64,000 nt of DNA from Cladochytrium replicatum. Taxonomy: Eukaryota > Chytridiomycota > Chytridiomycetes > Cladochytriales > Cladochytriaceae. The notes beneath the pieces were generated by a model that was given only the letters and a program-made list of their open reading frames with translations, was not told the DNA's origin and made no database searches. Positions 34,514-64,000 of this stretch are shown here, piece by piece. Where the stretch lies: assembly GCA_025526935.1 (NCBI GenBank), contig JAHLKD010000006.1, forward strand, positions 742,310-806,309, given 5' to 3'. Within the stretch, counting starts at the first letter, position 1. Each line of letters begins with the position of its first letter. The translations under genes were made by a program, and so were the position numbers.

Positions 34514-35111
34514 TGTTGAACAAAGCTAAGGTCTGGATCCTCAGGTTGTGTGTGTTGTTAATTCACGGGTTAATGTTGCTAAGAGATGAATAAAGAAGAT
34601 TGCGAGTCACAAGTGCTAGCGCAAGAGAATGCTCCTTGTGTGTATCGCCACAGGCTCCTTAAATAAGTGTACTGTCGTTTTGGCTTTTCCTTCCGGAAGA
34701 TCTGGATCGCAGCGATAAGGTTTGACTCTTCTTCTCACAGGCGTAGCGAAGCATAATCATGCTAAGCTGTGCGTGAGATCTAGCTCTCCTCAACAGGATT
34801 GTTCTCACACATGATTCCCACGAACGCGTTAATCATATGTAAACCTTTGCTGTGATCTGATCCGGGCTTCACTTCTACAAGTGGATGATAGAAAAGTAAT
34901 GACAGTTTACTATACCTATGGCTGCAATAAATATAACCCATGAAGAAATAACCGGAGGTATCCAAACTCGTAATAGATCATCATCTATATGCTTTAGTTC
35001 AATAGTTAGAAATGTTGCTCGGTGAAGAGTGACATTTCTGTATATCGGGCGTTTGTGTTTTGTACTATCAATGACTGGATTGGCCAAGTCCATCAATCGA
35101 AATACTTAACA
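34514..35111 (-). repeat. Cop-A solo LTR with TSD TATCT
   Basis: A 598-bp LTR in minus orientation, beginning TGTTAAGTATTTCG at 35111 and ending TTGTTCAACA at 34514. The 5-bp sequence TATCT occurs immediately on both sides (34509-34513 and 35112-35116), so a whole element inserted here and was reduced to one LTR by recombination. Confidence 0.95.
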
Positions 35112-35267
35112 TATCTGCCAGCACTGCTCCTCAGGGAGACTACTCCACTGTTTTCGCCACCAAAGCATTTGCAAGTGTGTCCAATTTGGTGTGCATGTTT
35201 CACTCAACAAAAGAATGTGTTGTACTGATCCAATGAGTGGAATCCTTGCTCCCAATCCGCCACTCCT

Positions 35268-35350
35268 TAAGGTTCGGCAGGTCCACGTCAGGTGCATTTG
35301 GTCAATGGACCCGGACCCGACCAAAAGACCCTAATACCTGCCGATCCTTA
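35268..35350. mobile_element. Short GC-rich element with 15-bp terminal inverted repeats
   Basis: Ends are TAAGGTTCGGCAGGT (35268) and ACCTGCCGATCCTTA (35350), inverted repeats with one mismatch. The 83-bp body contains GGACCCGGACCCGACC. It directly abuts a hAT fragment. Related sequence starts at 59933 next to the complete hAT gene, so it may be a hAT end or a separate small element. Confidence 0.55.
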
Positions 35351-35742
35351 CTAATGGCTCTCAAGCGCTCAGCGTCTGTTTTTTCTGTCTATCACCAGAA
35401 GCTCCGCTCGAATCGTGTCAACATTCTGGCGTGTTTCCAAAAACATCAGCACCACTGTTCTTGATTTTCTGTGACTTATACGATTCCTCCCAGACTTTCC
35501 GCACTAGGGTGACCTGATCCCTTCCAAGCCTTTGAAAATCGATAATATCGATCCTTAAAACGAGATCGAGTACCGTAGCAACTGCTAAACACGGCCTCTT
35601 AGCGATTGAGTATATCTTCTGAGCTTATCTAGTGCATTTCGAAATGCTTTGGTGAAAGTTTCATCCAATTCTGCCTCCTCTAGGTCCTCCAGTTGATCGA
35701 TAAGATTGTTGTAAAATGGAATAACAAGCGGAAGTGTTGGAT
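35351..35742 (-). pseudogene. Fragment of hAT transposase
   Basis: It is the reverse complement of a part of the hAT gene near 62620-63030, with high identity and small indels. It is cut on the right by a Cop-B LTR inserted after ATCCAACACTTCCGC, and on the left by the short GC-rich element. Confidence 0.9.
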
Positions 35743-41718: not shown

Positions 41719-44700
41719 CACCCCCGCAGTCAAAGCTGCGGTAGACAATGAGGATATTGGTATGAGCGTTGAGTTGCACATCTGTTTGTTGGTAATGTAT
41801 GTATTAGTCAACAAGGGTCAAATCAGATTGACGTGTAAGACCAAGTGCGCGTGTGAATTTTGAAAATAGTTTGAATGTCAAGGGTTTTGTGAAAATATCA
41901 GCAATTTGGTTCTCAGTATCAATATCTCTGAGTTCCTGCTGCTTCTGCTCAATTTGAAGATTCACAAACTTTTCTCGAACATCCATGTGTTTAGTTCTGT
42001 GATCATTAAGCAGGTCATTGGCAATAGACTGTGTAGAGGTATTATCTTGCCAGAGGATCATGGGCTTACTTTTGCATGAAATACCAATGGTTGCCATGAG
42101 GTTTTTCATCCACTTCATCTCACGTGATAATTCATTCAATGCATATAACTCTGCTTCAGTGGAAGAGCAAGTTATAACCTGTTGCTTTGTAGACTGCCAG
42201 CAAACAGCTGCATTGGCAAACATTACAACATATCCTGTCCTGGAATAGCGAGCAGGATCATTTGCCCAGTCTGCATCAGCATATCCCATAGGGATGTGTT
42301 CATTTGATGCAAACTCATATACACCGTCAGAGTGTACGTTGGGAGTGGGTATGTTATTGCATGTGTAATGCAAACCATAGTCCCATGTTCCCAATAAGTA
42401 ACGATGCAGGCGAGCTAGTGCCTTTTGTTCGCAAACTCGTGGTTCAACCTGATGTTGTGCCAAGACATTGACAGCATAAGATAAATCAGGTCTGGTCTTT
42501 GTAGCTAGGTACGAGATTTTCATGAGTTCCGAGCGAAAAATAGTTGCATCATTTTTGGATAAAATAGGCAAGCTTGTTTCATGTTTGTAGTGAGAAGAAA
42601 TAGGTGTTTTGGCTGGTTTAAGATTGGATTCCCATAATTTCAATCTCTGCAATATTTCCTTTGCATATTGAGCATTGGTTATGAAATAGCCGTGAGTAGT
42701 TTTGATCAATTGCATTTTCAGAATCCATTTGGCTGTAGAGTGACTTCCGACCTTGAATGAGGAATTCAAGCCATTCATGAAGTCTTGGTAGCCATTTGGG
42801 TCTGGAGAGAAATGAAGAATATCATCTACATGAACAGTAGTGTGTTCACGTATTTTCACAGTGGAACTGTGAGTAGATGGTTTCATTTGCCAGAAATGAC
42901 AAGCATCTGAAAGATCACGGATGTATCCCATGTCTTCATATTTCGCCCAGAGGCATTTGTACCATTCTCTAGCAGCTTGATGTAAACCATATAAGCTTTT
43001 GACAAGATAACAAACTAATGGATTGCCAGATTCGTCAGTCTCTGTAAATCCATGGGCATTTCAACATAAACATCTTCCTCAAGTGATGCATTGAGATATG
43101 CTCCTGTAATGTCAAATTGATAAATGTGTAATTTGACAATTGCAGCAAGAGCAACTAGTAATCGAATTGTAGTGGTTTTCGCCACAGGAGAATAGGTTTT
43201 GTCGAAATCCATTCCCTGTATCTGGGAGAACCCTCTAACTACCCATCGTGCCTTGAATCGGATGATGTTGCCATCTTCATCAAGTTTGTATGAATAAACC
43301 CATTTGCCAGTGAGAAGGTTGTTCCCATTTGGCAAGATGCGTTTGTTCCATGTTCCCAAATTGATAAGTTGTTGATTTTCTTCACACATGGCTGCAAGCC
43401 AGTATGGCCATTCATCAGGTCGCGACATAGCTTCCTGGACTGTCTTGGGAATACTTCTCAAGTGTCCTTGAGGTATAGGAACGTCGGGTGTACTCGATTT
43501 TGCTTTCTCATTTACATTGACATTGGGGATATTACGTCTCAACAAAGGATGTCTTTGCTGGGGATGAAATCTGTTTGTTGGAGTAACCATATGTTGTTTG
43601 CCTTTAAGTTTGCGACGTTTGGCTTTGTGTGCCACAAATCCATAATCGTTGTCATCATCTTCACCAATCCATTGTAAATCTTCCAAATCACTTTGGGAAT
43701 CATCTTCATTTTGTTCTTGTACGTGTGGTACAGAAAGTGGTACATAAGTGTCATTGTTCATGTTTAACGAATGGTTATAGTCGTTGGTGGTATCGTGCTC
43801 GTCATCAACATTTGAATCATGTTGGGACATAGGAGTAACATGCATTTGTGAGATATCCATTCGATGATAAAATCGTTGGTTGGGATCCAACTCCTCATCA
43901 GATGAGGTGTTAGCGCTATCATCACAATCTGAGTCTGTAGTATTGTCATTATCGCTATTCATATCAGGTAAATTTGAAATATCAAAATGATGACCCTGAG
44001 GAATAGGATAGTGTTTGGTGATGTCATTTAAAGTTTGTGATGTTGGGTTTAAGCCAACAAATACTCCCTCATGAAAAGTAAAATGAAAATATTCGCTTAT
44101 GCGTTTGGTATTAAGATTCAAAGCATGAATGATTTTCATATCTTCACCCTTATAACCCAGAAATAGTCCTAGCTCTGACTTCTCTGATACTTTGCGACTA
44201 GACCTTTGTTCTGGAGAAATCCAGAGACTAACCAGGGTACCAAAGGTGTGAATGATTGCCGGATCAATCAGCTTGTCAAAGTAAACAGTATGTGGTACAT
44301 TCTTAGTTCTAGAATGGTAAACACAATTTTTGACAGTCGCAGCATAAAGGATGGCAAATTTGATGAACTGTAAAGTATGTGGAAGACCAGCTGTTTTCAG
44401 CATAGACTTGTACATCTCTTTCATTGAACGGACATTCCGTTCAGCAAGACCATTTAGCTCTTTGACTGATGCAGGTGAAGGATGGGCATGTATGTGTGGT
44501 ACCTTGTTACTGCACCAAGTCAAGAATTGGTTTGACAATAGTTCTCCAGAATCGGATCTCACTTCATAGACGTGAAGTGGCAGAAATCTATTTTCAACAT
44601 CTGCGATGTGTCTTAGCATACTATCAGAGGCTTCGCTCTTTCGTTGCAAGAAGTAGATTGTAATGTGAGAACTGTATTCATCTACGATAATCTGCCAGTG

Positions 44701-47113
44701 ACCTATTGTTTTGCCATTTCGGACAATTGGTACTGCATCAGTATGTAGGCGATATAATTTCCTCAGTGCTGGACTTAGCGTCGAGTTAATTGGAGTTTGT
44801 ACAGCCTTAGTCTGATTGCAAATTATGCAGTTCTGTAAAATAGACGAGTTAACAAAATCAAGTGCATCACTCCTGACTTTGGGCAGTTTCTTTCCCAGAG
44901 AATGTAAAGTTTGCAGGATTTTCCGCAAATGTATGTGACCAAATTGCCAGTGTAATCTAGCTAATTTGTTGATGGTCACAGCTGAAACGTTGTTTACTCC
45001 ATTATCAGCCATTGTTTGGGAGTATAGACTTAATGTTGCAGATGATGCTCCGTCTAAAACTTCACCCCCGTAATTTCTAGTTTTGTTAGAATCTTTTGGG
45101 AAAACATTGTTGTCCTTCACTGTGTCAAACCTTACACCAGACGTGGTTGTCTGCTGCTCTTGGGCAGTGTTTGTAGTGGTACCAGGTAAAACATTCTGTT
45201 TGCCAACAGAGAGTGCAGAATTAGAAAGATTCGTCAAAATAGCTGCACCTATTTTGGAAGAGTGTTTAAGTAATGGATTAGTGGTATCCAAACTTCCATG
45301 AAGATAATGTAAACCTCCACGTCTTAAACCAATGGTAACACATTGTTCAGTTCCTTTGTTTGACAAATAGACTTTGTCTTTGGTGAAACTGACTATATCA
45401 CCTTCATCCCCGATGATGCTATAGACAGATATAAGTGTATCCTCTAAATCGGGAACAAAAAGTGCGTTTTGAATGTGTTTTATTGAACCATTTGACAAAA
45501 CAAGTGCAATATCTCCATAGCCTTTAATAGGAATGGGATGATTGTCTGCCAAGTAAACATCTCCTGCATCATTAACGTAAAATAAATTCTTGAATGCATG
45601 TCTGTCTGGAGTCATCCAAGCAGTAGCACCAGAGTCAATCAAACCGAGAGGTTTGGCATTTACGTGTAGATTGCAGTTGGTACTCTTCAATGCTGTGATA
45701 ATAGAGGGATGTGTAAAATCCACAATATTATTAGCTTTGAATATTGAAGAGAAGGATTTGATGGATTGTACCTTGCTGGAAGGTTCTGATTCCTGAGAAT
45801 CGATATCCATGTTCTGGGATGTTGAGGAGGAAGCACGAGATGCTTTTATCTGTTTCCATTCCTCATCATTCAAACTTTTGGCTAGTTTGCATTTCCTGCA
45901 GAAATTCTGCGTGTGGCCAGATTTGCCACAGAAATCGCAAGAGAATTTGTTGTTCTTCGCATCCTTTGATATTGATGCGGCACGATTGTTTGCAGTCTTA
46001 CTGTTGGCATTTCCTTTATGTGAGGAAGCATGTTTCTCAATCAAATATTTGAGTTGTTTACACTCTGCAGAAGAATGAGAAGAGTTGGGATGTAAAACAC
46101 AAACCTCATGAGCAGCATGAGCTTTCGGTAGTCTTTTGGTCTTTGCTCGCATGGCTTTGCCTTTGATTTGAGGTGAATCTGAAGGAGTGTAATCGCGAGT
46201 TACATCCATTTGAATGATTTCTCTCATCTCAGCAAGTAAGTTCTGCATTGTTCTCAGGTAATGGTGTTCTGATTGTATCTTCTGACCAGAATCATCCTCA
46301 TCATCAAGTAGATCAGGTTCATACTTTGTGAAAGTATCCATTGCTGAGTAAAATCGAAAAGGATTGTAGATTGATAGCAGGTTCACTGATCTTTGAGCAA
46401 ACTCGAGTGAGAAGTTCGTGAATCACAGCTTCAGCTGGTTGGGTTGAAAGCTTTTCCTCGGTGAGTTGAATCAGCTCAGCAATGAATGATTTGACTTCAA
46501 GTGCATCTTCACCGTTGGAGCAAGCTAGAGCTTTGAAACGGTCTTCCCAATGGCGGCTCTCAAAAGTCTTCTGCCGTTTAGCTGCGTAAATTCCGCGTAA
46601 AGCAGCAACTCGATCAACGGCATTCTGATGTTTTTGTACTAAATTGATGTCGACCTTCGGAAAACAATTGGCAAGACAACTGTTTGCAATGTTGTTGTGT
46701 CCTTGAGATCGTTCGTACATCTGTAATTCAGCGCGATATGATTGCAATCGTCGATGATTGTCGTTCACAATTGCGTTGTACTCTTTCAACGCTACGTCGT
46801 ACTCTTTAACGGCATAATCAAAGTCATTTGTTGTGTCGTATTCTTCGAGTGCAGATGGTCGTTCAGGCCGTTCAGGTTCCTCTTCTTTCACAAAGTCTTC
46901 CGGCTTTGGGTAGGGCGACTTTGTGAGCAAAGTTCCAGCTTCTCCTTTCGAGTTCGCATAATTCTGAACGATCTTCATGTATTTATCGAACTCCCCAAGC
47001 GTTTGCCCAGCGAACGGCCTTGGTTTTCCGTTGCGGGTGTCGTTCTTAGGCATGCTGTAAGCGTTGGAGATCTGGTGTTGATCGGGGGAAGCGCCTTGTG
47101 GCACTAACTATTG
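41719..47113 (-). mobile_element. Cop-B internal region, nearly complete gag-pol
   Basis: Minus strand, three frames in succession. Gag begins at 47104 (MPQGASPDQ; GKPRPFAGQTLGEFDKYMKI). After a one-base shift near 46330 the main frame (to 43015) has the zinc knuckle CDFCGKSGHTQNFC, protease LIDSGATAWMT, integrase (VDEYSSHITIYFLQ, SDSGELL, VKELNGLAERN) and the start of RT (QFDITGAYLNASLEEDVYV). A second one-base loss at the EMP/HGF position moves to the last frame (42931-41804) with VHVDDILHFSPD and RNase H ending LTRQSDLTLVD. Only these two single-base changes break it. The site just inside the 5' LTR reads CAATAGTTAGTGCC, the likely primer site. Confidence 0.95.
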
Positions 47114-47763: not shown

Positions 47764-48362
47764 TGTTGAACAAAGCTGTGGTCTGGATCCTCAGGTTGTG
47801 TGTGTTGCTAATTCACGGGTTAATGTTTCTAAGAGATGAATAAAGAAGATTGCGAGTCACAAGTACTAGCGCAAGAGAATGCTCCTTGTGTGTATCGCCA
47901 CAGGCTCCTTAAATAAGTGTACTGTCGTTTTGGCTTTTCCTTCCGGAAGATCTGGATCGAAGCGATAAGGTTTGACTCTTCTTCTCACAGGCGTAGCGAA
48001 GCATAATCATGCTAAGCTGTGCGTGAGATCTAGCTCTCCTCAACAGGATTGTTCTCACACATGATTCCCACGAACGCGTTAATCATATGTAAACCTTTGC
48101 TGTGATCTGATCCGGGCTTCACTTCTACAAGTGGATGATAGAAAAGTAATGACAGTTTACTATACCTATGGCCGCAATAAATATAACCCATGAAGAAATA
48201 ACTGGAGGTATCCAAACTCGTAATAGATCATCATCTATATGCTTTAGTTCAATAGTTAGAAATGTTGCTCAGTGAAGAGTGACATTTCTGTATATCGGGC
48301 GTTTGTGTTTTTGTACTATCAATGACTGGATTGGCCAAGTCCATCAATCGAAATACTTAACA
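47764..48362 (-). repeat. Cop-A LTR (D), 3' LTR of the inverted arm
   Basis: 599 bp in minus orientation, followed by the polypurine complement at 48363. It carries the variant AATAACTGGAGG, shared only with the LTRs at 54634 and 58360. Confidence 0.95.
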
Positions 48363-48886
48363 CACCCCCTCAGTCATTAGATAGGTACAACCGAGAGTAT
48401 CACTCAACCGATCATAACTTTCTGTAAATGCTGAAGTTGATATTCTATTGAAATAAGGGTGAGTTGTATGGACATCGCCAGCCGGTCGTTCAAGATAGTA
48501 TATTAAGTGAAGACTGACTGACTAGCCCCAACGAGCCCCTGTGTTTAAGGTATAATTTACTTCCAAGAGGTTTAGTTAAGATGTCCGCGATCATATCAGA
48601 AGTATCCATATGGTGTAACTCCTGATGTTTCTGTTCAACTTGGAGATTCACAAATCTCTCGCGAACGTCCATGTGTTTAGTCCGTTTGTTGTTGAACAGA
48701 TTGTTTGCGATAGACTCGGTGGATTGATTGTCTTGCCATAAACGGAGCGGATTGAACGACGTAATTCCGATACCCGTCATAAGATTTTTCATCCACTTCA
48801 TCTCACGCGATAGTTCGTTCAGCGCATACAGTTCGGCTTCCGACGACGAGGCTGCAATAGTCTGTTGTCGAATCGACTGCCACCTG
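48363..48886 (-). mobile_element. Cop-A RNase H segment, left arm
   Basis: Encodes the RNase H end on the minus strand (48801-48490; KWMKNLMTGIGITSF... LTKPLGSKLY). It is separated from the rest of RNase H by the solo LTR at 48887. Confidence 0.95.
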
Positions 48887-49485
48887 TGTTGAACAAAGCT
48901 GTGGTCTGGATCCTCAGGTTGTGTGTGTTGCTAATTCACGGGTTAATGTTTCTAAGAGATGAATAAAGAAGATTGCGAGTCACAAGTACTAGCGCAAGAG
49001 AATGCTCCTTGTGTGTATCGCCACAGGCTCCTTAAATAAGTGTACTGTCGTTTTGGCTTTTCCTTCCGGAAGATCTGGATCGAAGCGATAAGGTTTGACT
49101 CTTCTTCTCACAGGCGTAGCGAAGCATAATCATGCTAAGCTGTGCGTGAGATCTAGCTCTCCTCAACAGGATTGTTCTCACACATGATTCCCACGAACGC
49201 GTTAATCATATGTAAACCTTTGCTGTGATCTGATCCGGGCTTCACTTCTACAAGTGGATGATAGAAAAGTAATGACAGTTTACTATACCTATGGCCGCAA
49301 TAAATATAACCCATGAAGAAATACCCGGAGGTATCCAAACTCGTAATAGATCATCATCTATATGCTTTAGTTCAATAGTTAGAAATGTTGCTCAGTGAAG
49401 AGTGACATTTCTGTATATCGGGCGTTTGTGTTTTTGTACTATCAATGACTGGATTGGCCAAGTCCATCAATCGAAATACTTAACA
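48887..49485 (-). repeat. Cop-A solo LTR (E) inserted in Cop-A RNase H, TSD ACCTG
   Basis: 599 bp flanked by ACCTG on both sides (48882-48886 and 49486-49490). The uninterrupted site CGACTGCCACCTGATTGCC is present in copy 1 near 37860. It carries the variant AATACCCGGAGG. Confidence 0.97.
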
Positions 49486-50039
49486 ACCTGATTGCCGCAT
49501 TAGCGAACATTACCACGTAACCGGTTTGTGAGTATCTATCTGCATCGCCCGCCCAGTCTGCATCGGCATAACCTTGTGGGTTGTTAGCCGAATCAAACAT
49601 GTAAAGACCGTCGGGTCTCAGCATCGGAGACGTGATACCAGTCCGTGTATAGTGTAAACCGTAATCCCAAGTACCGAGTAAATATCGTTTTAATCGATAG
49701 AGAGCCTTTGATTCTGACTGTCGAGGATCAATCTGATGTTGTGCCAAAATATTGACTGCGTATGAAATATCCGGTCGTGTCTTAGTCGCCACGTACGATA
49801 TCTTCATTAACATTGATCGAAATTGTGTTGCCTCGGCATCGGACAGTGTTGGTGTGGTCTCATCAAAGATATATGATTTTGACATCGGTGTTTTGGTCGG
49901 TTTGATGTTGGTACCCCATAAATTCGCTTCTTCGAGAATCTTCTTTACGTACAATGCATTGCTAAGGAAATATCCTTCCGTTGTCTGCAATAACTCCATT
50001 TTCAGAATCCATTTCGCCTTCGAAGTACTGCCTACTGTG
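49486..50039 (-). mobile_element. Cop-A RT/RNase H segment, left arm
   Basis: Minus-strand coding for RT C-terminal part and RNase H start (TVGSTSKAKWILKMELLQTT to MFANAAIR). It stops at 50039 inside TTCACAGTAGG and is joined to plus-strand pol sequence. Confidence 0.93.
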
Positions 50040-53000
50040 AGGTAATCTTTGACCTTACCCAACCTACTTCTGTTGATAAAGATGCTGACACATACATCGG
50101 AAATATATTTTCGATAGTGAACGCACACTCGGCACAGAAGGTTGTCCGTGTACATGTTCAAGCAAAGGATCGTGTAGGTTTGCTTGATACAGGCGCAACT
50201 GTTTGGATGACACCTAATCGTCATGCCTTTAGTTCGCTGACGTATACGAATGACGAGGACGTGGTGGAACTAGCGGATAGTCATACAATTCCAGTTTGTG
50301 GTTTTGGAGATGTATCTGTAGTTTTACCCAATGGGCGAATTAAGATAATACACAACGCACTTTATGTTCCTGATCTCGAAGACACACTTGCATCAGTGTG
50401 TAGTATCATTGGAGACTCCGGGGACATTGTGAGTTTCACCAAAGACAAGGTTATCCTCACGCATGGTGATACGGATGAACACGTTATTATTGGGCGACGG
50501 GAAAGAGATTTGTACTATCTCTATGCTGATGTTAGTACCGTCGGAACTCACCAACCGCGGCATGCGATTGCTCAACGAGCTAAAGCAGTAGCGGTATCCG
50601 CAGAAGGTCTCGATCAGTCGATGGACTTTACGTCCGGTGTACGATCTTCTCACGCGATGGGTCTCGATGTAATGTCAGACAACAACATTCGTCAAACGAA
50701 CGATGATGAATGTCAACGAGCATCTCAAGATACAGTTGGAGTGAGCACCAACTTATCGCCAGTGACAGTACACGAACTTGCAAAGTTACACCAGCAGTTT
50801 GGTCACATCCACTTACGGACGATCTTTCGAACGGCAGAGAAGCTCAACATCAAAATGCCCAAGGTTGAACCGGATGCATTCAATCTTGTCAACAAATCAA
50901 TTATGCAGAATTGTTTGGTCTGTAGTCGCACGAAGCTGAAGCAGAAGCTGATTTATTCTACAATAAGTCGAGCTCCGAGGAAACTTTTCCGTCTGTTTTC
51001 CGATGTCGTACGTTTAATCTACGACGGACAGAAGAAGAGATATTGGCAGATCATTGTCGACGAACAACCTCGTTTCATCACAATCTACTTCCTGAATCGA
51101 AAGAGTGATGCGGTGGATAGTATGATTCGACATATCGCTGATGTGGAAAATCGCAATCACCCATTACACGTTGCTGAACTACGTTCCGATTCAGGAGAAT
51201 TGATTACTAAACGGTTGATCCAATGGTGCAATACCAAGATTCCTCGCATCCGCGTCCACCCAGCTCCTCCGTCAGTAAAGGAACTCGATGGTCTATCAGA
51301 GCGGAATATACAATCGATCAAGTATATGTCGGACGCGATGCTGCTACAAGCTGGACTACCACGAACACTTCAATTCGTGCAACTCTCCATCCTATACGCT
51401 GCCGTCGTCAAGAACGCTACTTTCCATTCAGCTGTGAATGCGATTCCGTACTGTGCTTACCTTGACAAGCGGATAGATTTGGCAACTATCCACCCCTTTG
51501 GAACACTCGTTAGTTTGTGGATCTCACACGAACAAAGGTTGGCGCGCAGAATCCGAGACAAGTCTGAACTAGGTCTGTTTCTCGGATACAAGGGTGAAGA
51601 CCTGAAGATCGTCATAGCACTCAATTTTCGGACAAACACAATAGGCGAATACTTCCATGTTACGTTCCACGAGGGAGTTTTTGTTGGTTATAATCCTACC
51701 CGACAGTTACTCGACGATCTTACGGTACAATATCCACTGAAGGCCGGGACATATTTCGATGTTGATCAAATACCAACCGGGGATCAGGGGGTGCAAGAGA
51801 CGACTGTTGAGTTTGTCTCAGACAATTTCCCGATTTCTACCGTTGCAGACGAAGAAATCGATGAGGATATAAACGACGACCCCATATATTACCGCTTAGA
51901 AGAAGCCGGTGACATGCATGTTGTTGAACATTTACATGGACTAGACGATGATGACCCAGACGATGCTGATTATGATCCAAATGCTGATTTATCGACTCCA
52001 CAATCCATTACTGAAGAATCTCCGAATTTGTCTTCCGTATCTCCTGTAGAGGAATATGATGCACAACTCAAAAGTGATCTTCAATTCATTGGAGAAGATG
52101 TCGACGAAGCGTATGCAGCAAGAAAACGAAAACGTCAAGCAAGTGCAAATTTGTCGAACGCCAAAAGGAAACAAAATTCCTTGTTTACCCGGTCCGTTCC
52201 TAATATCGATTGGACCCTGAAGGCCGATTCCTCATATCCAACACAACCAATTGCGAATGGAAATATACGGACTGCACCAAAGACTCTTCGTGAGGCTTTA
52301 TCACGATCCGATGAGGCTCCATTCTGGTTAGCGGCGATGAAGGAGGAAGTCACACAACTAGTCGGCAACAATACTTGGGCCGAAACGTTTTTACCTGATG
52401 GACGGAATTTATTATCGGGCAAATGGGTTTTCACATATAAGCTTGACGAACATGGCAATATTACTCGATTCAAAGCACGTTGGGTTGTACGAGGATTTTC
52501 ACAGATTGAAGGATTGGATTTCGATGAAACCTATTCTCCAGTTACGAAAACGTCCACGATCCGTTTTCTGATTGCATTAGCAGCATTAGTCGGCATGATC
52601 ATATTCCAGTTTGATATCAAGGGTGCATATCTCAATGCGATACTGGAAGAAGAGAACTACGTCTAACTCCATCATGGTTTCGGACGAGTAGATTTCCAGA
52701 ATCGACCCATCGTCTGCAGACTTATCAAAAGTCTGTATGGTCTACACCAGGCAGCTCGAGAATGGTACAAAACTTTTTGGAAACAATATCTCAGTGTTGG
52801 TTTCGTGCGGAATATTGCAGACATCTGTCATTTCTGGCGATACAATCCAACAAATAATACCTGCGAACACACTACCGTTCATGTCGATGATATACTACAT
52901 TTTTCCACAGATCCAAACGCATATCATCGGTTTCAGACCGATTTGGAAACTTCGTTCACAGTAGGCAGTACTTCGAAGGCGAAATGGATTCTGAAAATGG

Positions 53001-53510
53001 AGTTATTGCAGACAACGGAAGGATATTTCCTTAGCAATGCATTGTACGTAAAGAAGATTCTCGAAGAAGCGAATTTATGGGGTACCAACATCAAACCGAC
53101 CAAAACACCGATGTCAAAATCATATATCTTTGATGAGACCACACCAACACTGTCCGATGCCGAGGCAACACAATTTCGATCAATGTTAATGAAGATATCG
53201 TACGTGGCGACTAAGACACGACCGGATATTTCATACGCAGTCAATATTTTGGCACAACATCAGATTGATCCTCGACAGTCAGAATCAAAGGCTCTCTATC
53301 GATTAAAACGATATTTACTCGGTACTTGGGATTACGGTTTACACTATACACAGACTGGTATCACGTCTCCGATGCTGAGACCCGACGGTCTTTACATGTT
53401 TGATTCGGCTAACAACCCACAAGGTTATGCCGATGCAGACTGGGCGGGCGATGCAGATAGATACTCACAAACCGGTTACGTGGTAATGTTCGCTAATGCG
53501 GCAATCAGGT
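50040..53510 (+). mobile_element. Cop-A internal region, copy 2 (protease to RT)
   Basis: Begins in the linker after the zinc knuckle (IFDLTQPTSVDKDADTYIGN). It holds protease LLDTGATVWMT, the pre-integrase site, integrase with VDEQPRFIT...SDSGELI...GLSERN, and RT. The frame from 50117 is open to a TAA at 52664-52666, after which the same frame continues without a further stop through VHVDDILHFSTD to the LTR insertion at 53511. The TAA is at the same codon as in copy 1. Confidence 0.95.
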
Positions 53511-54109
53511 TGTTAAGTATTTCGATTGATGGACTTGGCCAATCCAGTCATTGATAGTACAAAAACACAAACGCCCGATATACAGAAATGTCACTCTTCA
53601 CTGAGCAACATTTCTAACTATTGAACTAAAGCATATAGATGATGATCTATTACGAGTTTGGATACCTCCGGGTATTTCTTCATGGGTTATATTTATTGCG
53701 GCCATAGGTATAGTAAACTGTCATTACTTTTCTATCATCCACTTGTAGAAGTGAAGCCCGGATCAGATCACAGCAAAGGTTTACATATGATTAACGCGTT
53801 CGTGGGAATCATGTGTGAGAACAATCCTGTTGAGGAGAGCTAGATCTCACGCACAGCTTAGCATGATTATGCTTCGCTACGCCTGTGAGAAGAAGAGTCA
53901 AACCTTATCGCTTCGATCCAGATCTTCCGGAAGGAAAAGCCAAAACGACAGTACACTTATTTAAGGAGCCTGTGGCGATACACACAAGGAGCATTCTCTT
54001 GCGCTAGTACTTGTGACTCGCAATCTTCTTTATTCATCTCTTAGAAACATTAACCCGTGAATTAGCAACACACACAACCTGAGGATCCAGACCACAGCTT
54101 TGTTCAACA
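53511..54109 (+). repeat. Cop-A solo LTR (F) in RNase H, TSD CAGGT
   Basis: 599 bp with CAGGT on both sides (53506-53510, 54110-54114). It is at the same nucleotide position of RNase H as LTR E and has the same diagnostic variant (CCTCCGGGTATT). Confidence 0.97.
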
Positions 54110-54633
54110 CAGGTGGCAGTCGATTCGACAACAGACTATTGCAGCCTCGTCGTCGGAAGCCGAACTGTATGCGCTGAACGAACTATCGCGTGAGATGAAG
54201 TGGATGAAAAATCTTATGACGGGTATCGGAATTACGTCGTTCAATCCGCTCCGTTTATGGCAAGACAATCAATCCACCGAGTCTATCGCAAACAATCTGT
54301 TCAACAACAAACGGACTAAACACATGGACGTTCGCGAGAGATTTGTGAATCTCCAAGTTGAACAGAAACATCAGGAGTTACACCATATGGATACTTCTGA
54401 TATGATCGCGGACATCTTAACTAAACCTCTTGGAAGTAAATTATACCTTAAACACAGGGGCTCGTTGGGGCTAGTCAGTCAGTCTTCACTTAATATACTA
54501 TCTTGAACGACCGGCTGGCGATGTCCATACAACTCACCCTTATTTCAATAGAATATCAACTTCAGCATTTACAGAAAGTTATGATCGGTTGAGTGATACT
54601 CTCGGTTGTACCTATCTAATGACTGAGGGGGTG
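54110..54633 (+). mobile_element. Cop-A RNase H end and polypurine tract, copy 2
   Basis: RNase H resumes (RWQSIRQQTIAASSSEAELY to LTKPLGSKLY... stop at 54506). A purine tract GACTGAGGGGGTG ends at 54633, directly before the LTR. Confidence 0.96.
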
Positions 54634-55232
54634 TGTTAAGTATTTCGATTGATGGACTTGGCCAATCCAGTCATTGATAGTACAAAAACACAAACGCCCG
54701 ATATACAGAAATGTCACTCTTCACTGAGCAACATTTCTAACTATTGAACTAAAGCATATAGATGATGATCTATTACGAGTTTGGATACCTCCAGTTATTT
54801 CTTCATGGGTTATATTTATTGCGGCCATAGGTATAGTAAACTGTCATTACTTTTCTATCATCCACTTGTAGAAGTGAAGCCCGGATCAGATCACAGCAAA
54901 GGTTTACATATGATTAACGCGTTCGTGGGAATCATGTGTGAGAACAATCCTGTTGAGGAGAGCTAGATCTCACGCACAGCTTAGCATGATTATGCTTCGC
55001 TACGCCTGTGAGAAGAAGAGTCAAACCTTATCGCTTCGATCCAGATCTTCCGGAAGGAAAAGCCAAAACGACAGTACACTTATTTAAGGAGCCTGTGGCG
55101 ATACACACAAGGAGCATTCTCTTGCGCTAGTACTTGTGACTCGCAATCTTCTTTATTCATCTCTTAGAAACATTAACCCGTGAATTAGCAACACACACAA
55201 CCTGAGGATCCAGACCACAGCTTTGTTCAACA
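54634..55232 (+). repeat. Cop-A LTR (G), shared by two tandem copies
   Basis: 599 bp. It is the 3' LTR of copy 2 and, since gag of copy 3 follows directly, the 5' LTR of copy 3. It has variant CCTCCAGTTATT as in LTR D. Confidence 0.95.
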
Positions 55233-58359: not shown

Positions 58360-58958
58360 TGTTGAACAAAGCTGTGGTCTGGATCCTCAGGTTGTGTGTG
58401 TTGCTAATTCACGGGTTAATGTTTCTAAGAGATGAATAAAGAAGATTGCGAGTCACAAGTACTAGCGCAAGAGAATGCTCCTTGTGTGTATCGCCACAGG
58501 CTCCTTAAATAAGTGTACTGTCGTTTTGGCTTTTCCTTCCGGAAGATCTGGATCGAAGCGATAAGGTTTGACTCTTCTTCTCACAGGCGTAGCGAAGCAT
58601 AATCATGCTAAGCTGTGCGTGAGATCTAGCTCTCCTCAACAGGATTGTTCTCACACATGATTCCCACGAACGCGTTAATCATATGTAAACCTTTGCTGTG
58701 ATCTGATCCGGGCTTCACTTCTACAAGTGGATGATAGAAAAGTAATGACAGTTTACTATACCTATGGCCGCAATAAATATAACCCATGAAGAAATAACTG
58801 GAGGTATCCAAACTCGTAATAGATCATCATCTATATGCTTTAGTTCAATAGTTAGAAATGTTGCTCAGTGAAGAGTGACATTTCTGTATATCGGGCGTTT
58901 GTGTTTTTGTACTATCAATGACTGGATTGGCCAAGTCCATCAATCGAAATTCTTAACA
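58360..58958 (-). repeat. Cop-A LTR (H), recombinant
   Basis: 599 bp in minus orientation. Its left flank is that of LTR E (ACCTG), its right flank is Cop-B sequence (TATTC), and its internal variant AATAACTGG is that of LTRs D and G. Confidence 0.93.
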
Positions 58959-59932: not shown

Positions 59933-60110
59933 ACTAAGGATCGGCGGGTTTTAGGGTCTTTCGGGTCGGGTCCGGGTCCATTGACTAAATGTACCCGACC
60001 CGAGTGCCGGGTTTTCATGGAAAATTTTCGGGTCGGATCCGGGTCGGGTATCGGGTCCAGTAGGAAAACCCTTCTCGGGTCAAAAGTCAGACCCGAGTAA
60101 AACCCGATGT
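59933..60110. repeat. GC-rich block with CGGGTCGGGT-type repeats
   Basis: Begins TAAGGATCGGCGGGTTTTAG, closely like the end of the 83-bp element at 35268-35350. It carries GGGTCGGGTCCGGGTCC and several CCCGACCCG copies on both strands. Such subterminal repeats are common in hAT elements; it may be the left end of the hAT element beside it. Confidence 0.6.
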
Positions 60111-60143
60111 GATAGAGAATCTAAAACGAAGCTATTGTTCTTT

Positions 60144-60930
60144 CTGTCCACGCGGACACTTTCCAAGAAGACGCAATATAAGTTTTGTATGTATCAAACA
60201 ATTTTGCATCACAACGGACATCGAGGCATGTATTTTCTGTCCACCCGGACACTTTCTCAACTCATTGACGTACTTCAGTTATCTCTACCCAATACAACTA
60301 ACCTCTCTATCAATGTTACTAGCAATAAGATTCTGTCCACCCGGACACTTTCTTAACTCATTGACGGTACTTGAGTGATCTCTATCAAGTACAACTAACA
60401 TCTCTATCAATGTTACTAGCAATAAAATTATGTCCACCCGGACACTTTCTCAACTCATTGACGTACTTCAGTTATCTCTACCCAATACAACTAACCTCTC
60501 TATCAATGTTACTAGCAATAAGATTCTGTCCACCCGGACACTTTCTTAACTCATTGACGGTACTTGAGTGATCTCTATCAAGTACAAACTAACATCTCTA
60601 TCAATGTTACTAGCAATAAGATTCTGTCCACCCGGACACTTTCTCAACTCATTGACGTACTTCAGTTATCTCTACCCAATACAGCTAACCTCTCTATCAA
60701 TGTTACTAGCAATACGATTCTGTCCACCCGGACACTTTCTCAACTCATTGACGTACTTCAGTTATCTCTACCCAATACAGCTAACCTCTCTATCAATGTT
60801 ACTAGCAATAGGATTCTGTCCACCCGGACACTTTCTCAACTCATTGACGTACTTCAGTTATCTCTACCCAGTACAACTAACCTCTATCAATGTTACTAGC
60901 AATACGATTCTGTCCACCCGGACACTTTCC
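60144..60930 (+). repeat. Left array of a roughly 96-bp tandem repeat
   Basis: Nine units begin CTGTCCACCCGGACACTTTC (first has CGCGG) at 60144, 60237, 60333, 60430, 60526, 60624, 60720, 60816 and 60910. The inner units are nearly identical, in two subtypes (TACTTCAGTTATC and TACTTGAGTGATC). Each has the small palindrome TGTCC-ACCC-GGACA. Open frames through the array are by-products of the repeat. Confidence 0.96.
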
Positions 60931-61049
60931 AAGAAGTCACAACGGAAGTTCTGTAACAAACAATTTCTACCACGACAGACCTCGAGAGCTGTGCTTTCTG
61001 TGCACCTGGACATTAGAGTCGGTAACGTTCCAGCCACACCACAGCAAAA

Positions 61050-63485
61050 ATGGACGCCGCCTTTGTTAAACCAAAGCGTAAGGCAGCGTCCGACGCAAGC
61101 CAAAGACTAGTGGACAGTCATCCGCTTGACACACGGAAGCGAAGTCTGCCAGCCCCCCAAATTTCAGAGGCGTCCAGCGAGGGGAACATCATGCAGGACA
61201 AACGCAGACGTGTATCAGGACACTGTGGCAACAACAGCGCTCGAGAGCCGAGCTCCACATCTTCTTCCAATGACTCCAGCGAGTTGGGCCCGGCTTCTCA
61301 GCATGCACCACAGCTTCCTGCCGACGTTAGTTTTGCTGACTCTTCAGTGCGACAGGAGCCTGCAGCTGGATCAGTTCAACCATCAATGCTTTCATCAGAC
61401 GCAGATGTTGATAGCATGTCGGACTGTAGAGGTAGTCGAGGCGGCATAGCGAAGGATTACTATAAGGTTGATAATGGTCTGAGAACATGTTTGGTTGCGA
61501 AATGCAAGTGGAGCCAGAAGGTCGATAAGACGGGATCAACAAAAAACTTCCTCCGGCATCTGAAAAACCACCATGGAAGTATTGCCAGGTCGCTTGGACT
61601 GTTGGACATCGTCCCCAAGGGACAACAGACATTGAATTTCGGCTCGCAGGAGAAGGAGCAAAACTTTGTGTTCAATCCAGACGTAGCGTGGCGGTCGATT
61701 TTGGACTGGATTGCTGCAGACAATCAGGCTTTTACTGTTGTGGAGAACGAGTTCTTTGTCAGCATGCTGAAGACTTTTCAGCCAAACTATACACCAAAGA
61801 CGGCAAAAGCAGTGAAGCAAAAGGAGATGGATCTTTACGATAGGCAGAAGGAGCTCATTAAAGGTCTGATTGTTGGTTCGCCTTCAAAAGTATCAATAAC
61901 AGCTGACTGTTGGACATCGAAGAACCAGATTTCTTTTCTTGGAATTACTGCCCACTTCATCACGAAAGAATGGGAGCCGCAGGACTTGCTGCTGCAGATG
62001 ATTCCGATGGTTGGAAAGCATGAAGGCGTCGCCATGGCTAGTCAGCTTGTCAAGTGTCTGGATGAATTTGGCATGCTATCGGGTGAACGCTTATTGTGCA
62101 TTACAACCGACAACGGTTCAAACAACTTTACCATGAGTGCTAAGCTGGAGACGCTCTTGGAAGATAGGGATATTGCGTGGTCTGCAGAAACTCAACACAT
62201 GCGGTGTATGGCACACATTATCAATCTTGCAGCAAAGGATTTTATCGATACATTCGCGCCCGCAGGGGACACAGTCGCAAATGACGATAACTCCGGCGTT
62301 AATGTCATAAACCTTCTTCGACGGCTAGTCAGAGGAATCCGGTCTTCCCCAAAACGACGAAGCTCATTTATTGATTCGTGCCGATTTGTGAAACTGGTTC
62401 CTCTATTACCAATTATCGATGTGACAACTCGCTGGAATAGCACGTTCTATATGGTCAAACGAGCCTTACAGCTACGAGAGGCAATGGACAAAATATGCTG
62501 GATTGAAGATTCTTTGAAAGATTGGTCAATAAATCCAAAGCAATGGGAGGTCCTACAGAAGATCCGGGATGGTTTGAGTGTTTTCGAGGTTATATCAAAG
62601 GCAATCGAAGGGTCTAGATATCCAACACTTCCGCTTGTTATTCCATTTTACAACGATCTTATCGATCAACTGGAGGACCTAGAGGATGCAGAATTAGATG
62701 AAACTTTCACCAAAGCATTTCGAAATGCACTAGATAAGCTGAGAATATATTACTCAATCGCTAAGAGCCCGTGTTTAGCAGTTGCTACGGTACTCGATCC
62801 TCGTTTTAAGGATCAATATTATCAATTTTCAAAGGCTTGGGAGAAAGATGTAGGAAGGGATCAGGTCACCCTAGTGCGGAAAGTCTGGGAGGAATCGTAT
62901 AAGTCACGGAAAATCAAGAACAGTGGTGCCGATGTTTTTGGAAACACGCCAGAACGTCGACACGATTCGAGCGGAGCTTCCGGTGATAGACAGAAAAAAA
63001 CGGACGCTGAACGCTTGAGAGCCATTAGATCCGTTTTCATCTGGCAAGAAGAGATTCCTGAGGAAAAAGATGAGCTGGATCGCTATCTTGGCGATCAGGT
63101 ACTCCGCGGTATTGATTCTGATGGGAAGCCAATCAATATTATGGACTGGTGGAAGACCGTTGGAAGTGTGAACTTTCCAGCCCTAAGCCAGATGGCAATG
63201 GACTATTTAGGAATACCAGCAACAAGCGCTCCAGTCGAACGAAAGTTTTCAGCCGGGGTTGATTTGGTACCTGCAACTCGCAACCGCCTTGCTCCAAGAA
63301 CAATAAATGCGTTGATGTGCCGTCATGACTGGTTGCATCAATTGAGTGCTGAAGAACCGTTCAAAAATGATTCCATAGATTCAAAAAGTGATGTTAGTGA
63401 GGATTTTGTAAAGGTGCATAATTTTGGCGAGGATTTTGATGTGGTATTAGAGTTGGAAGCAACTGATGATAACCCACTCTTTTAA
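61050..63485 (+). CDS. hAT-superfamily transposase with BED finger, intact
   Basis: 811 residues in one exon. The N-terminus has basic clusters (KPKRKAAS, DKRRRVS) and a Ser-rich linker. A BED-type zinc finger lies at about 137-176 (Cys147, Cys152, His170, His174/175). The RNase H-like catalytic core shows Asp286 in SITADCWTS, Asp354 in CITTDNGSNN, a CMAHIINLA Cys/His motif (CxxH) near 386, TRWNST near 460, and Glu730 in the C-terminal dimerisation region (TSAPVERKFS) with the hATC pattern LSQMAMDYLGIPATSAPVER. No frameshift or stop is present, and all three acidic residues are kept, so it could be active. It is flanked by inverted repeat arrays. A truncated relative is at 35351-35742. Confidence 0.96.
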   Translation: MDAAFVKPKRKAASDASQRLVDSHPLDTRKRSLPAPQISEASSEGNIMQDKRRRVSGHCGNNSAREPSSTSSSNDSSELGPASQHAPQLPADVSFADSSVRQEPAAGSVQPSMLSSDADVDSMSDCRGSRGGIAKDYYKVDNGLRTCLVAKCKWSQKVDKTGSTKNFLRHLKNHHGSIARSLGLLDIVPKGQQTLNFGSQEKEQNFVFNPDVAWRSILDWIAADNQAFTVVENEFFVSMLKTFQPNYTPKTAKAVKQKEMDLYDRQKELIKGLIVGSPSKVSITADCWTSKNQISFLGITAHFITKEWEPQDLLLQMIPMVGKHEGVAMASQLVKCLDEFGMLSGERLLCITTDNGSNNFTMSAKLETLLEDRDIAWSAETQHMRCMAHIINLAAKDFIDTFAPAGDTVANDDNSGVNVINLLRRLVRGIRSSPKRRSSFIDSCRFVKLVPLLPIIDVTTRWNSTFYMVKRALQLREAMDKICWIEDSLKDWSINPKQWEVLQKIRDGLSVFEVISKAIEGSRYPTLPLVIPFYNDLIDQLEDLEDAELDETFTKAFRNALDKLRIYYSIAKSPCLAVATVLDPRFKDQYYQFSKAWEKDVGRDQVTLVRKVWEESYKSRKIKNSGADVFGNTPERRHDSSGASGDRQKKTDAERLRAIRSVFIWQEEIPEEKDELDRYLGDQVLRGIDSDGKPINIMDWWKTVGSVNFPALSQMAMDYLGIPATSAPVERKFSAGVDLVPATRNRLAPRTINALMCRHDWLHQLSAEEPFKNDSIDSKSDVSEDFVKVHNFGEDFDVVLELEATDDNPLF

Positions 63486-63540
63486 ATATAAATTGTTGTT
63501 TAGACTGTTCATCTGTTGAAGTACCGTCCAGGAGTTGAGA

Positions 63541-64000
63541 AAGCGACCGCCTGGACAGAATCCTATTACAAGTAGTATTTGTAGAGAGGTTGGTTGTACT
63601 TGATCGAGATCAGTGAAGTATCAGTGAAGTACCGTCAATGAGTTGAGAAAGTGTCCGGGTGGACAGAATCTTATTGCTAGTAACATTATTAGAGAGGTTA
63701 GCTGTACTTGATAGAGATCACTGAAGTACCGTCAATGAGTTGAGAAAGTGTCCGGGTGGACAGAATCCTATTGCTAGTAACATTGATAGAGAGGTTAGTT
63801 GTATTGGGTAGAGATCACTGAAGTACCGTCAATGAGTTGAGAAAGTGTCCGGGTGGACAGAATCCTATTGCTAGTAGTATTTGTAGAGAGGTTAGCTGTA
63901 CCTGATAGAGATTACTGAAGTACCGTCAATGAGTTGAGAAAGTGTCCGGGTGGACAGAATCGTATTGCTAGTAACATTGATAGAGAGGTTAGCTGTATTA
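63541..64000 (-). repeat. Right array, inverted copy of the same repeat
   Basis: Units in reverse orientation contain GTGTCCGGGTGGACAGAATC at 63651, 63748, 63845 and 63942 (period 97), with a divergent first unit at 63541. The array continues past the window end. Confidence 0.96.

Follow-up and report, generated by a model that had tools for sequence, protein, structure and literature searches.

The analyzed stretch, hereafter the window, comprises 64,000 nt of the Cladochytrium replicatum assembly GCA_025526935.1 (contig JAHLKD010000006.1, positions 742,310–806,309, forward strand). Its rightmost part is occupied by a hAT element on the plus strand (59935–64000, from the left end to the window edge), in which two inverted arrays of a ∼96-bp repeat flank an open transposase gene. 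The window edge falls within the right array, and the right end of the element lies beyond it. The transposon looks autonomous and appears to be inserted in a copia retrotransposon, a type of element of which the window holds further copies.

Transposase Gene

The transposase ORF (61050–63485, plus strand) comprises 811 codons with no internal stop. It matches the Pfam model Dimer_Tnp_hAT (72.7 bits, E = 2.2e-20, cut-off 21.4) and, below threshold, the hAT-like RNase-H model (24.2 bits against a cut-off of 27). A phmmer search returned four distinct sequences, half of them annotated as Hermes transposase and the others simply as transposase, with the best stretch at residues 694–759; the one Hermes alignment shown covers the regions of the first D, the W, and the E, those of the first D and the W weakly. 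Residues D286, D354, C386/H389 (CxxH, 386–389), W462, and E730 are in place, D354 and the CxxH being what we take, from hAT motifs, to be the corresponding positions. By its catalytic D, D, and E, its CxxH and W, and its C-terminal dimerization region, the predicted protein is assigned to the hAT superfamily. At E values up to 10, the Pfam models hit by the whole protein were the two for hAT and, weakly, zf-BED; a P-type transposase with a THAP domain was not recognized.

An N-terminal BED zinc finger is common among hAT transposases but not universal. The first-pass annotation of this DNA had proposed one here, and a BED finger is possible: weak BED-like residues occur at C147/C152/H170/H174, with zf-BED scores of 7.8 bits on the whole protein and 14.6 bits (E = 0.034) on a 90-residue piece. 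These scores stay below the cut-off of 20.6, and the match is partial, covering residues 150–175 and excluding C147. Single-sequence structure prediction of the transposase was unusable (mean pLDDT 35.8, pTM 0.22).

Left End and Insertion Site

The left end was located by comparison with empty sites. Two other copia copies (reverse strand, through 41844 and 36521) are uninterrupted and read CACGCGCACTTGGTCTTACA, whereas the occupied site reads CACGCGCAC, then TAAGGATCGGCGGGT. Occupied and empty sequences part after CACGCGCACT; the copia flank extends to 59934, the left flank of the element being ACGCGCAC. The start of the element is 59935; a T common to both sides leaves this position ambiguous by one base. 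TAAGGATCGGCGGGT constitutes the left terminal inverted repeat (59935–59949, plus strand) and is one of three exact matches to the 15-bp pattern TAAGGWTCGGCRGGT in the window, the others being the two ends of the 83-bp derivative described below. The copia flank is 98.5% identical over 979 bp to the copy at 41844–42822, and the hAT insertion therefore came later than the split of these two copia copies.

The left array starts 207 bp inside this end. Because the empty and occupied copia sequences separate at 59935, outside the array, the left array lies within inserted DNA, and the arrays belong to the element, as the first-pass annotation had held. The element start that it had placed near 60144 moves outward to 59935. 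An element end within the arrays, the contrary outcome named in that annotation, was looked for on the left and not found, the end lying 207 bp outside. A host minisatellite targeted by the hAT insertion was likewise ruled out, as the two uninterrupted copia copies diverge at 59935, before the array. Growth of the arrays only after insertion is unlikely, judging from the mirrored arms; the arrays may also have been collapsed or misjoined during assembly.

Between the left terminal repeat and the left array lies a subterminal region with a cluster of short motifs (59950–60141, plus strand). Counted over 59935–60141 on both strands, with overlapping sites included, CGGGTC reaches 9 occurrences and ACCCGA 10, where shuffles average 0.45 and 0.48; neither observed count was reached in any of 1,000 shuffles, the two words overlapping and hence not being independent. 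By word count, CGGGTC is absent from both arrays and from the ORF. By sequence counts, the left side of the element thus has, in its outer 207 bp, clustered short subterminal motifs of the hAT type. The idea that the whole subterminal region had turned into arrays is not supported, because this motif cluster separates the left end from the array; the range considered earlier started within the element and did not include these 207 bp. Short repeats adjoining the ends are bound by the hAT transposases of Ac, Tol2, Tag1, and Herves (PMC3143072), and the terminal cluster here would, by the same logic, be the main transposase-binding region.

Organization of the Arrays

Tandem Repeats Finder reported 7.2 copies of period 96 at 60235–60929 and 3.9 copies of period 97 at 63620–63997. 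Each unit, as cut here, has at one edge a 22-bp head, TTCTGTCCACCCGGACACTTTC, that contains a TGTCC/GGACA dyad. The exact head palindrome TGTCCACCCGGACA occurs eight times on the plus strand (60238–60924) and four times on the minus strand (63652–63956). With up to three mismatches, the count in the window rises to 17, including two matches outside the element and two that come from one site, at 60145, read on both strands. The expected number is 4.52 and the maximum among 100 shuffles was 12, none reaching 17, which places the count beyond chance.

The left array (60142–61012) contains nine heads at 93–98 bp spacing plus a degenerate tenth, TGTGCACCTGGACA, at 60999–61012. Its outermost unit, L1 (60142–60234, plus strand), has a body of type C; units L2–L8 (60235–60907, plus strand) follow as A B A B A A A, the source of a 193-bp higher-order period; and L9, again of type C, closes the array together with the degenerate tenth head (60908–61012, plus strand). 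L1 and L9 thus form the borders of the left array. Taken with their following heads, they align by BLAST over 112 columns at 78.6% identity (E = 4e-12), and their bodies alone show 0.81 identity against 0.70 ± 0.06 for shuffled sequences.

The right array (63517–64000, minus strand) is inverted and runs from the degenerate R1 to R5 plus part of R6. It has four exact heads at 97-bp spacing and a degenerate innermost head at 63560–63539; the partial R6 amounts to 41 bp at the window edge, and the right unit count is therefore at least five. The arms are inverted with respect to each other, with, for example, 60270–60463 matching 63633–63826 over 194 nt, ungapped, at 95%. Repeat detection, head counts, and the ORF confirm the first-pass description of nine left and at least five right inverted units around an open 811-residue hAT transposase. 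The near identity of units also described there applies to the core, which consists of A and B variants, but fails for L1 and L9, which are of a second type, and for the degenerate R1. Searches of the window with L1, A, B, and L9 as queries found no unit copies outside the two arms beyond weak matches of at most 24 bp.

Conservation of the Unit Head

Head and body behave differently among unit types. Between C and A/B units, heads are identical at 21–22 of 22 positions in all five pairs tested, whereas gapped alignments of the bodies give 0.61–0.73 identity, no better than shuffled sequences (0.70–0.72). Across the core units, 11 in number, invariant columns make up 21 of 22 in the head and 53 of 87 elsewhere. 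A head kept between unit types whose bodies show no similarity above the shuffled level suggests a protein-binding site, and this conservation is the best evidence, at the level of sequence comparison, for the importance of the head.

Several observations weigh on the other side. R1 shows the opposite pattern, with 18 of 22 head positions matching L2 and a body 0.90 identical to that of L2; its head divergence counts against the head as the functional part, as does a 9-mer, TCTCTATCA, that the unit body shares with the terminal region. The degenerate tenth left head also counts against head importance. Head conservation in L1 and L9 is, on its own, borderline (P = 0.015–0.14, depending on the divergence assumed), and shared heads may instead reflect how units joined, because the head is one edge of the unit as cut here.

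Taken together, our preferred reading, held tentatively and at a little under an even chance, is of a hAT transposon in copia with a terminal-cluster binding region, head sites in the arrays, and homogenized arms. Under this reading, each unit would supply one 22-bp candidate site, recognized either by the transposase or by some other protein, with the ∼75-bp body serving mostly as spacer. Growth in unit number may have come from unequal exchange or slippage between two older units of type C, with likeness within and between arms maintained by gene conversion. The arrays could raise the local transposase concentration or aid pairing of the two ends, as suggested for Galileo, and unit number may vary.

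A more specific version posits two-layer end recognition, in which the terminal cluster and the mirrored arrays of 22-bp dyads at ∼96-bp spacing act together, the arms evolve in concert, and copy number sets pairing; we regard it as rather unlikely. A single transposase site for head and terminal region would join both layers through the 8-mer ACCCGGAC, common to the 22-bp head and the terminal region. This link is weak: An 8-mer in common with the head turns up in 262 of 2,000 shuffles, and the terminal region also has a 9-mer in common with the unit body.

A passive origin has considerable, if less than even, probability: The arrays would be a minisatellite carried in the element, with no role in transposition, whose units spread through slippage or unequal exchange and whose inverted arms homogenized each other through gene conversion. 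Mosaic right units and cross-arm similarity (below) are in line with it, as are the greater divergence of the R1 head than of the R1 body, the existence of an array-free derivative, and the recorded cases, listed in a review, in which tandem repeats arose from transposons (PMC9659126). It accounts less readily for heads kept in all five tested pairs of units with unrelated bodies, or for arrays on both sides in mirror orientation.

The position of the left array also invites a regulatory explanation, in which heads are sites for a dyad-binding regulator, the left array is the putative transposase promoter, and unit number tunes expression. The heads are palindromic, and the last, degenerate one ends at 61012, leaving 37 bp before the ATG at 61050; yet the right array, built of like units, starts 31 bp past the stop codon, and we consider this explanation improbable.

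Likeness between Arms and Unit Folding

Units of the left arm share on average 94.7% identity (21 pairs) and those of the right arm 90.5% (6 pairs); units of opposite arms share 90.7% (28 pairs), as much as right-arm units do among themselves. These means are over 11 of the 15 aligned units and part-units, with L1, L9, R1, and the partial R6 left out. At eight diagnostic columns, each of the four right core units has A states in some and B states in others. Such A/B mosaics, with the cross-arm likeness, would fit conversion between the arms. The mixtures could also be ancestral states retained on the right, and duplication followed by inversion also fits the likeness of the arms.

The inverted arms raise a structural alternative, in which paired arms or unit hairpins form and the structure, rather than the sequence, is recognized or triggers silencing. 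Inverted matches of up to 194 nt, ungapped and 95% identical, would permit pairing, and the B-type unit L3 folded more stably than its shuffles (z = −2.76) through GTACTTGA/TCAAGTAC. The other four of the five units folded did not exceed shuffled sequence in stability (z from −0.61 to 0.45), all values being computed with RNA parameters for DNA units, and the left array stops short of the left end. We give structural recognition very little credence. Among the five units folded, the hairpins proposed in the first-pass annotation find support in L3; its term foldback-like holds loosely, the left end lying outside the arrays.

Array-Free Derivative and Transposase Fragment

An 83-bp derivative of the family (35268–35350, minus strand) carries both element ends and no array. 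Read from 35350 to 35268, its first 64 bases match 59935–59999 at 89%, and it closes in ACCTGCCGAACCTTA, the complement of its own start with one mismatch in 15. The short terminal inverted repeats of the family are accordingly 15 bp long with one mismatch in this derivative, and the left one is found at 59935 too. Because the derivative retains both ends without an array, arrays may be dispensable. No 8-bp duplication was seen by eye at its flanks, where it adjoins a transposase fragment.

That fragment (35351–35742, minus strand) is decayed and homologous to 62620–63028 at 92%, with indels: Over 392 bp it differs from the transposase by 15 substitutions and four gaps. The substitutions divide into 6 synonymous and 9 nonsynonymous, too few to show selection. 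The fragment lies directly beside the derivative in an order incompatible with a simple internal deletion; because it adjoins an end in this order, a nested arrangement, with one hAT element within the ends of another, is conceivable.

Relation to Known Elements

The nearest parallel is Herves, a hAT element of Anopheles gambiae, compared here by description and not by sequence alignment. Herves shares a hAT transposase, short terminal repeats, and a short subterminal binding motif with the present element, and it has three ∼100-bp tandem repeats, described for its left end (PMC3143072); the present element has nine left and at least five right units in mirror orientation, with a palindromic head. 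Tandem ∼100-bp repeats in a hAT end are thus already known, and what sets this element apart is their presence on both sides, their mirrored orientation, and the larger number of units.

Long, inverted, internally repetitive ends also occur in Galileo (P superfamily) and Foldback-like elements (PMC3688188). Galileo differs in its P-type transposase with a THAP domain and in the place of its repeats, which form part of the long terminal repeat; in the present element, 207 bp of other sequence separate the left array from the left end. In Galileo, tandem repeats of the long ends contain sites bound by the transposase. The domain responsible is the DNA-binding domain of the transposase, the sites are present in two of four repeats, and the authors propose that several sites may give specificity (PMC3688188). 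The lack of the site in the other two repeats counts against our preferred reading.

Two further elements are alike in part. Muta1, a MULE of Aedes aegypti classed as type 2 Foldback, combines terminal repeats that include nine subterminal tandem units with an active transposase, but the repeats are 12 bp long and the transposase is Mutator-like (PMC5225508). The gadMor-hAT MITEs of Atlantic cod have hAT-derived long inverted tandem repeats with units of 167–169 bp, but they are nonautonomous, have no transposase, and lie in tandem at inversion breakpoints (PMC12368964). No hAT element with mirrored arrays around its transposase was recognized in the literature searched, largely outside subscription papers.

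Database searches covered viral and prokaryotic collections, which say little on eukaryotes. No transposase relatives were found in viral_contigs, a viral collection, and the unit pattern was found in neither viral_contigs nor genome_contigs (viral and prokaryotic). The sequence TGTCCACCCGGACACTTTC had one match in viral_contigs, at L001 (3911 bp of a 180,825-bp contig), with no array in the part seen, and this match is taken as chance.

If the heads bind transposase, the element would be a hAT that has reached the Foldback-like repetitive form described in P-type and Mutator-like elements, and its units would provide a natural series—in number, type, and left vs. right position—for the effect of repeated sites on hAT mobility. 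The 22-bp head is short enough for direct testing. Beyond 64000, the right array is predicted to end, perhaps in a C-type unit, and to be followed by an ACCCGA/CGGGTC cluster, an end like ACCTGCCGAACCTTA, the target duplication ACGCGCAC, and then TTGGTCTTACACGTC.

Copia-Derived Surroundings

A ∼558-bp LTR-like sequence at 58401–58958 belongs to a set of eight copies in the window, the other seven 98.4–99.8% identical to it and present in both orientations; eight copies so alike point to recent copia-type activity. A nearly complete-looking copia element lies at 41804–47104 on the minus strand, with ORFs at 41804–42931, 43015–46386, and 46319–47104. In a scan of its first two ORFs, with the third (46319–47104) left out, RVT_2 matched the first (below cut-off) and the second, and Pol_BBD matched the second. 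A solo LTR-like copy of the copia-linked repeat occurs at 34514–35114 (minus strand), apparently with AGATA on both sides by eye.

An inverted repeat with arms at 47764–50040 and 52956–55232 (2277 bp, 99.96% identical, 2915 bp between arms) encloses an 849-residue ORF (50117–52666) that resembles copia pol by eye; this structure could reflect a rearrangement of copia, a foldback-like form of it, or an artifact of assembly. The window also contains DEP/RGS, subtilase, and glucosidase II beta-like genes.
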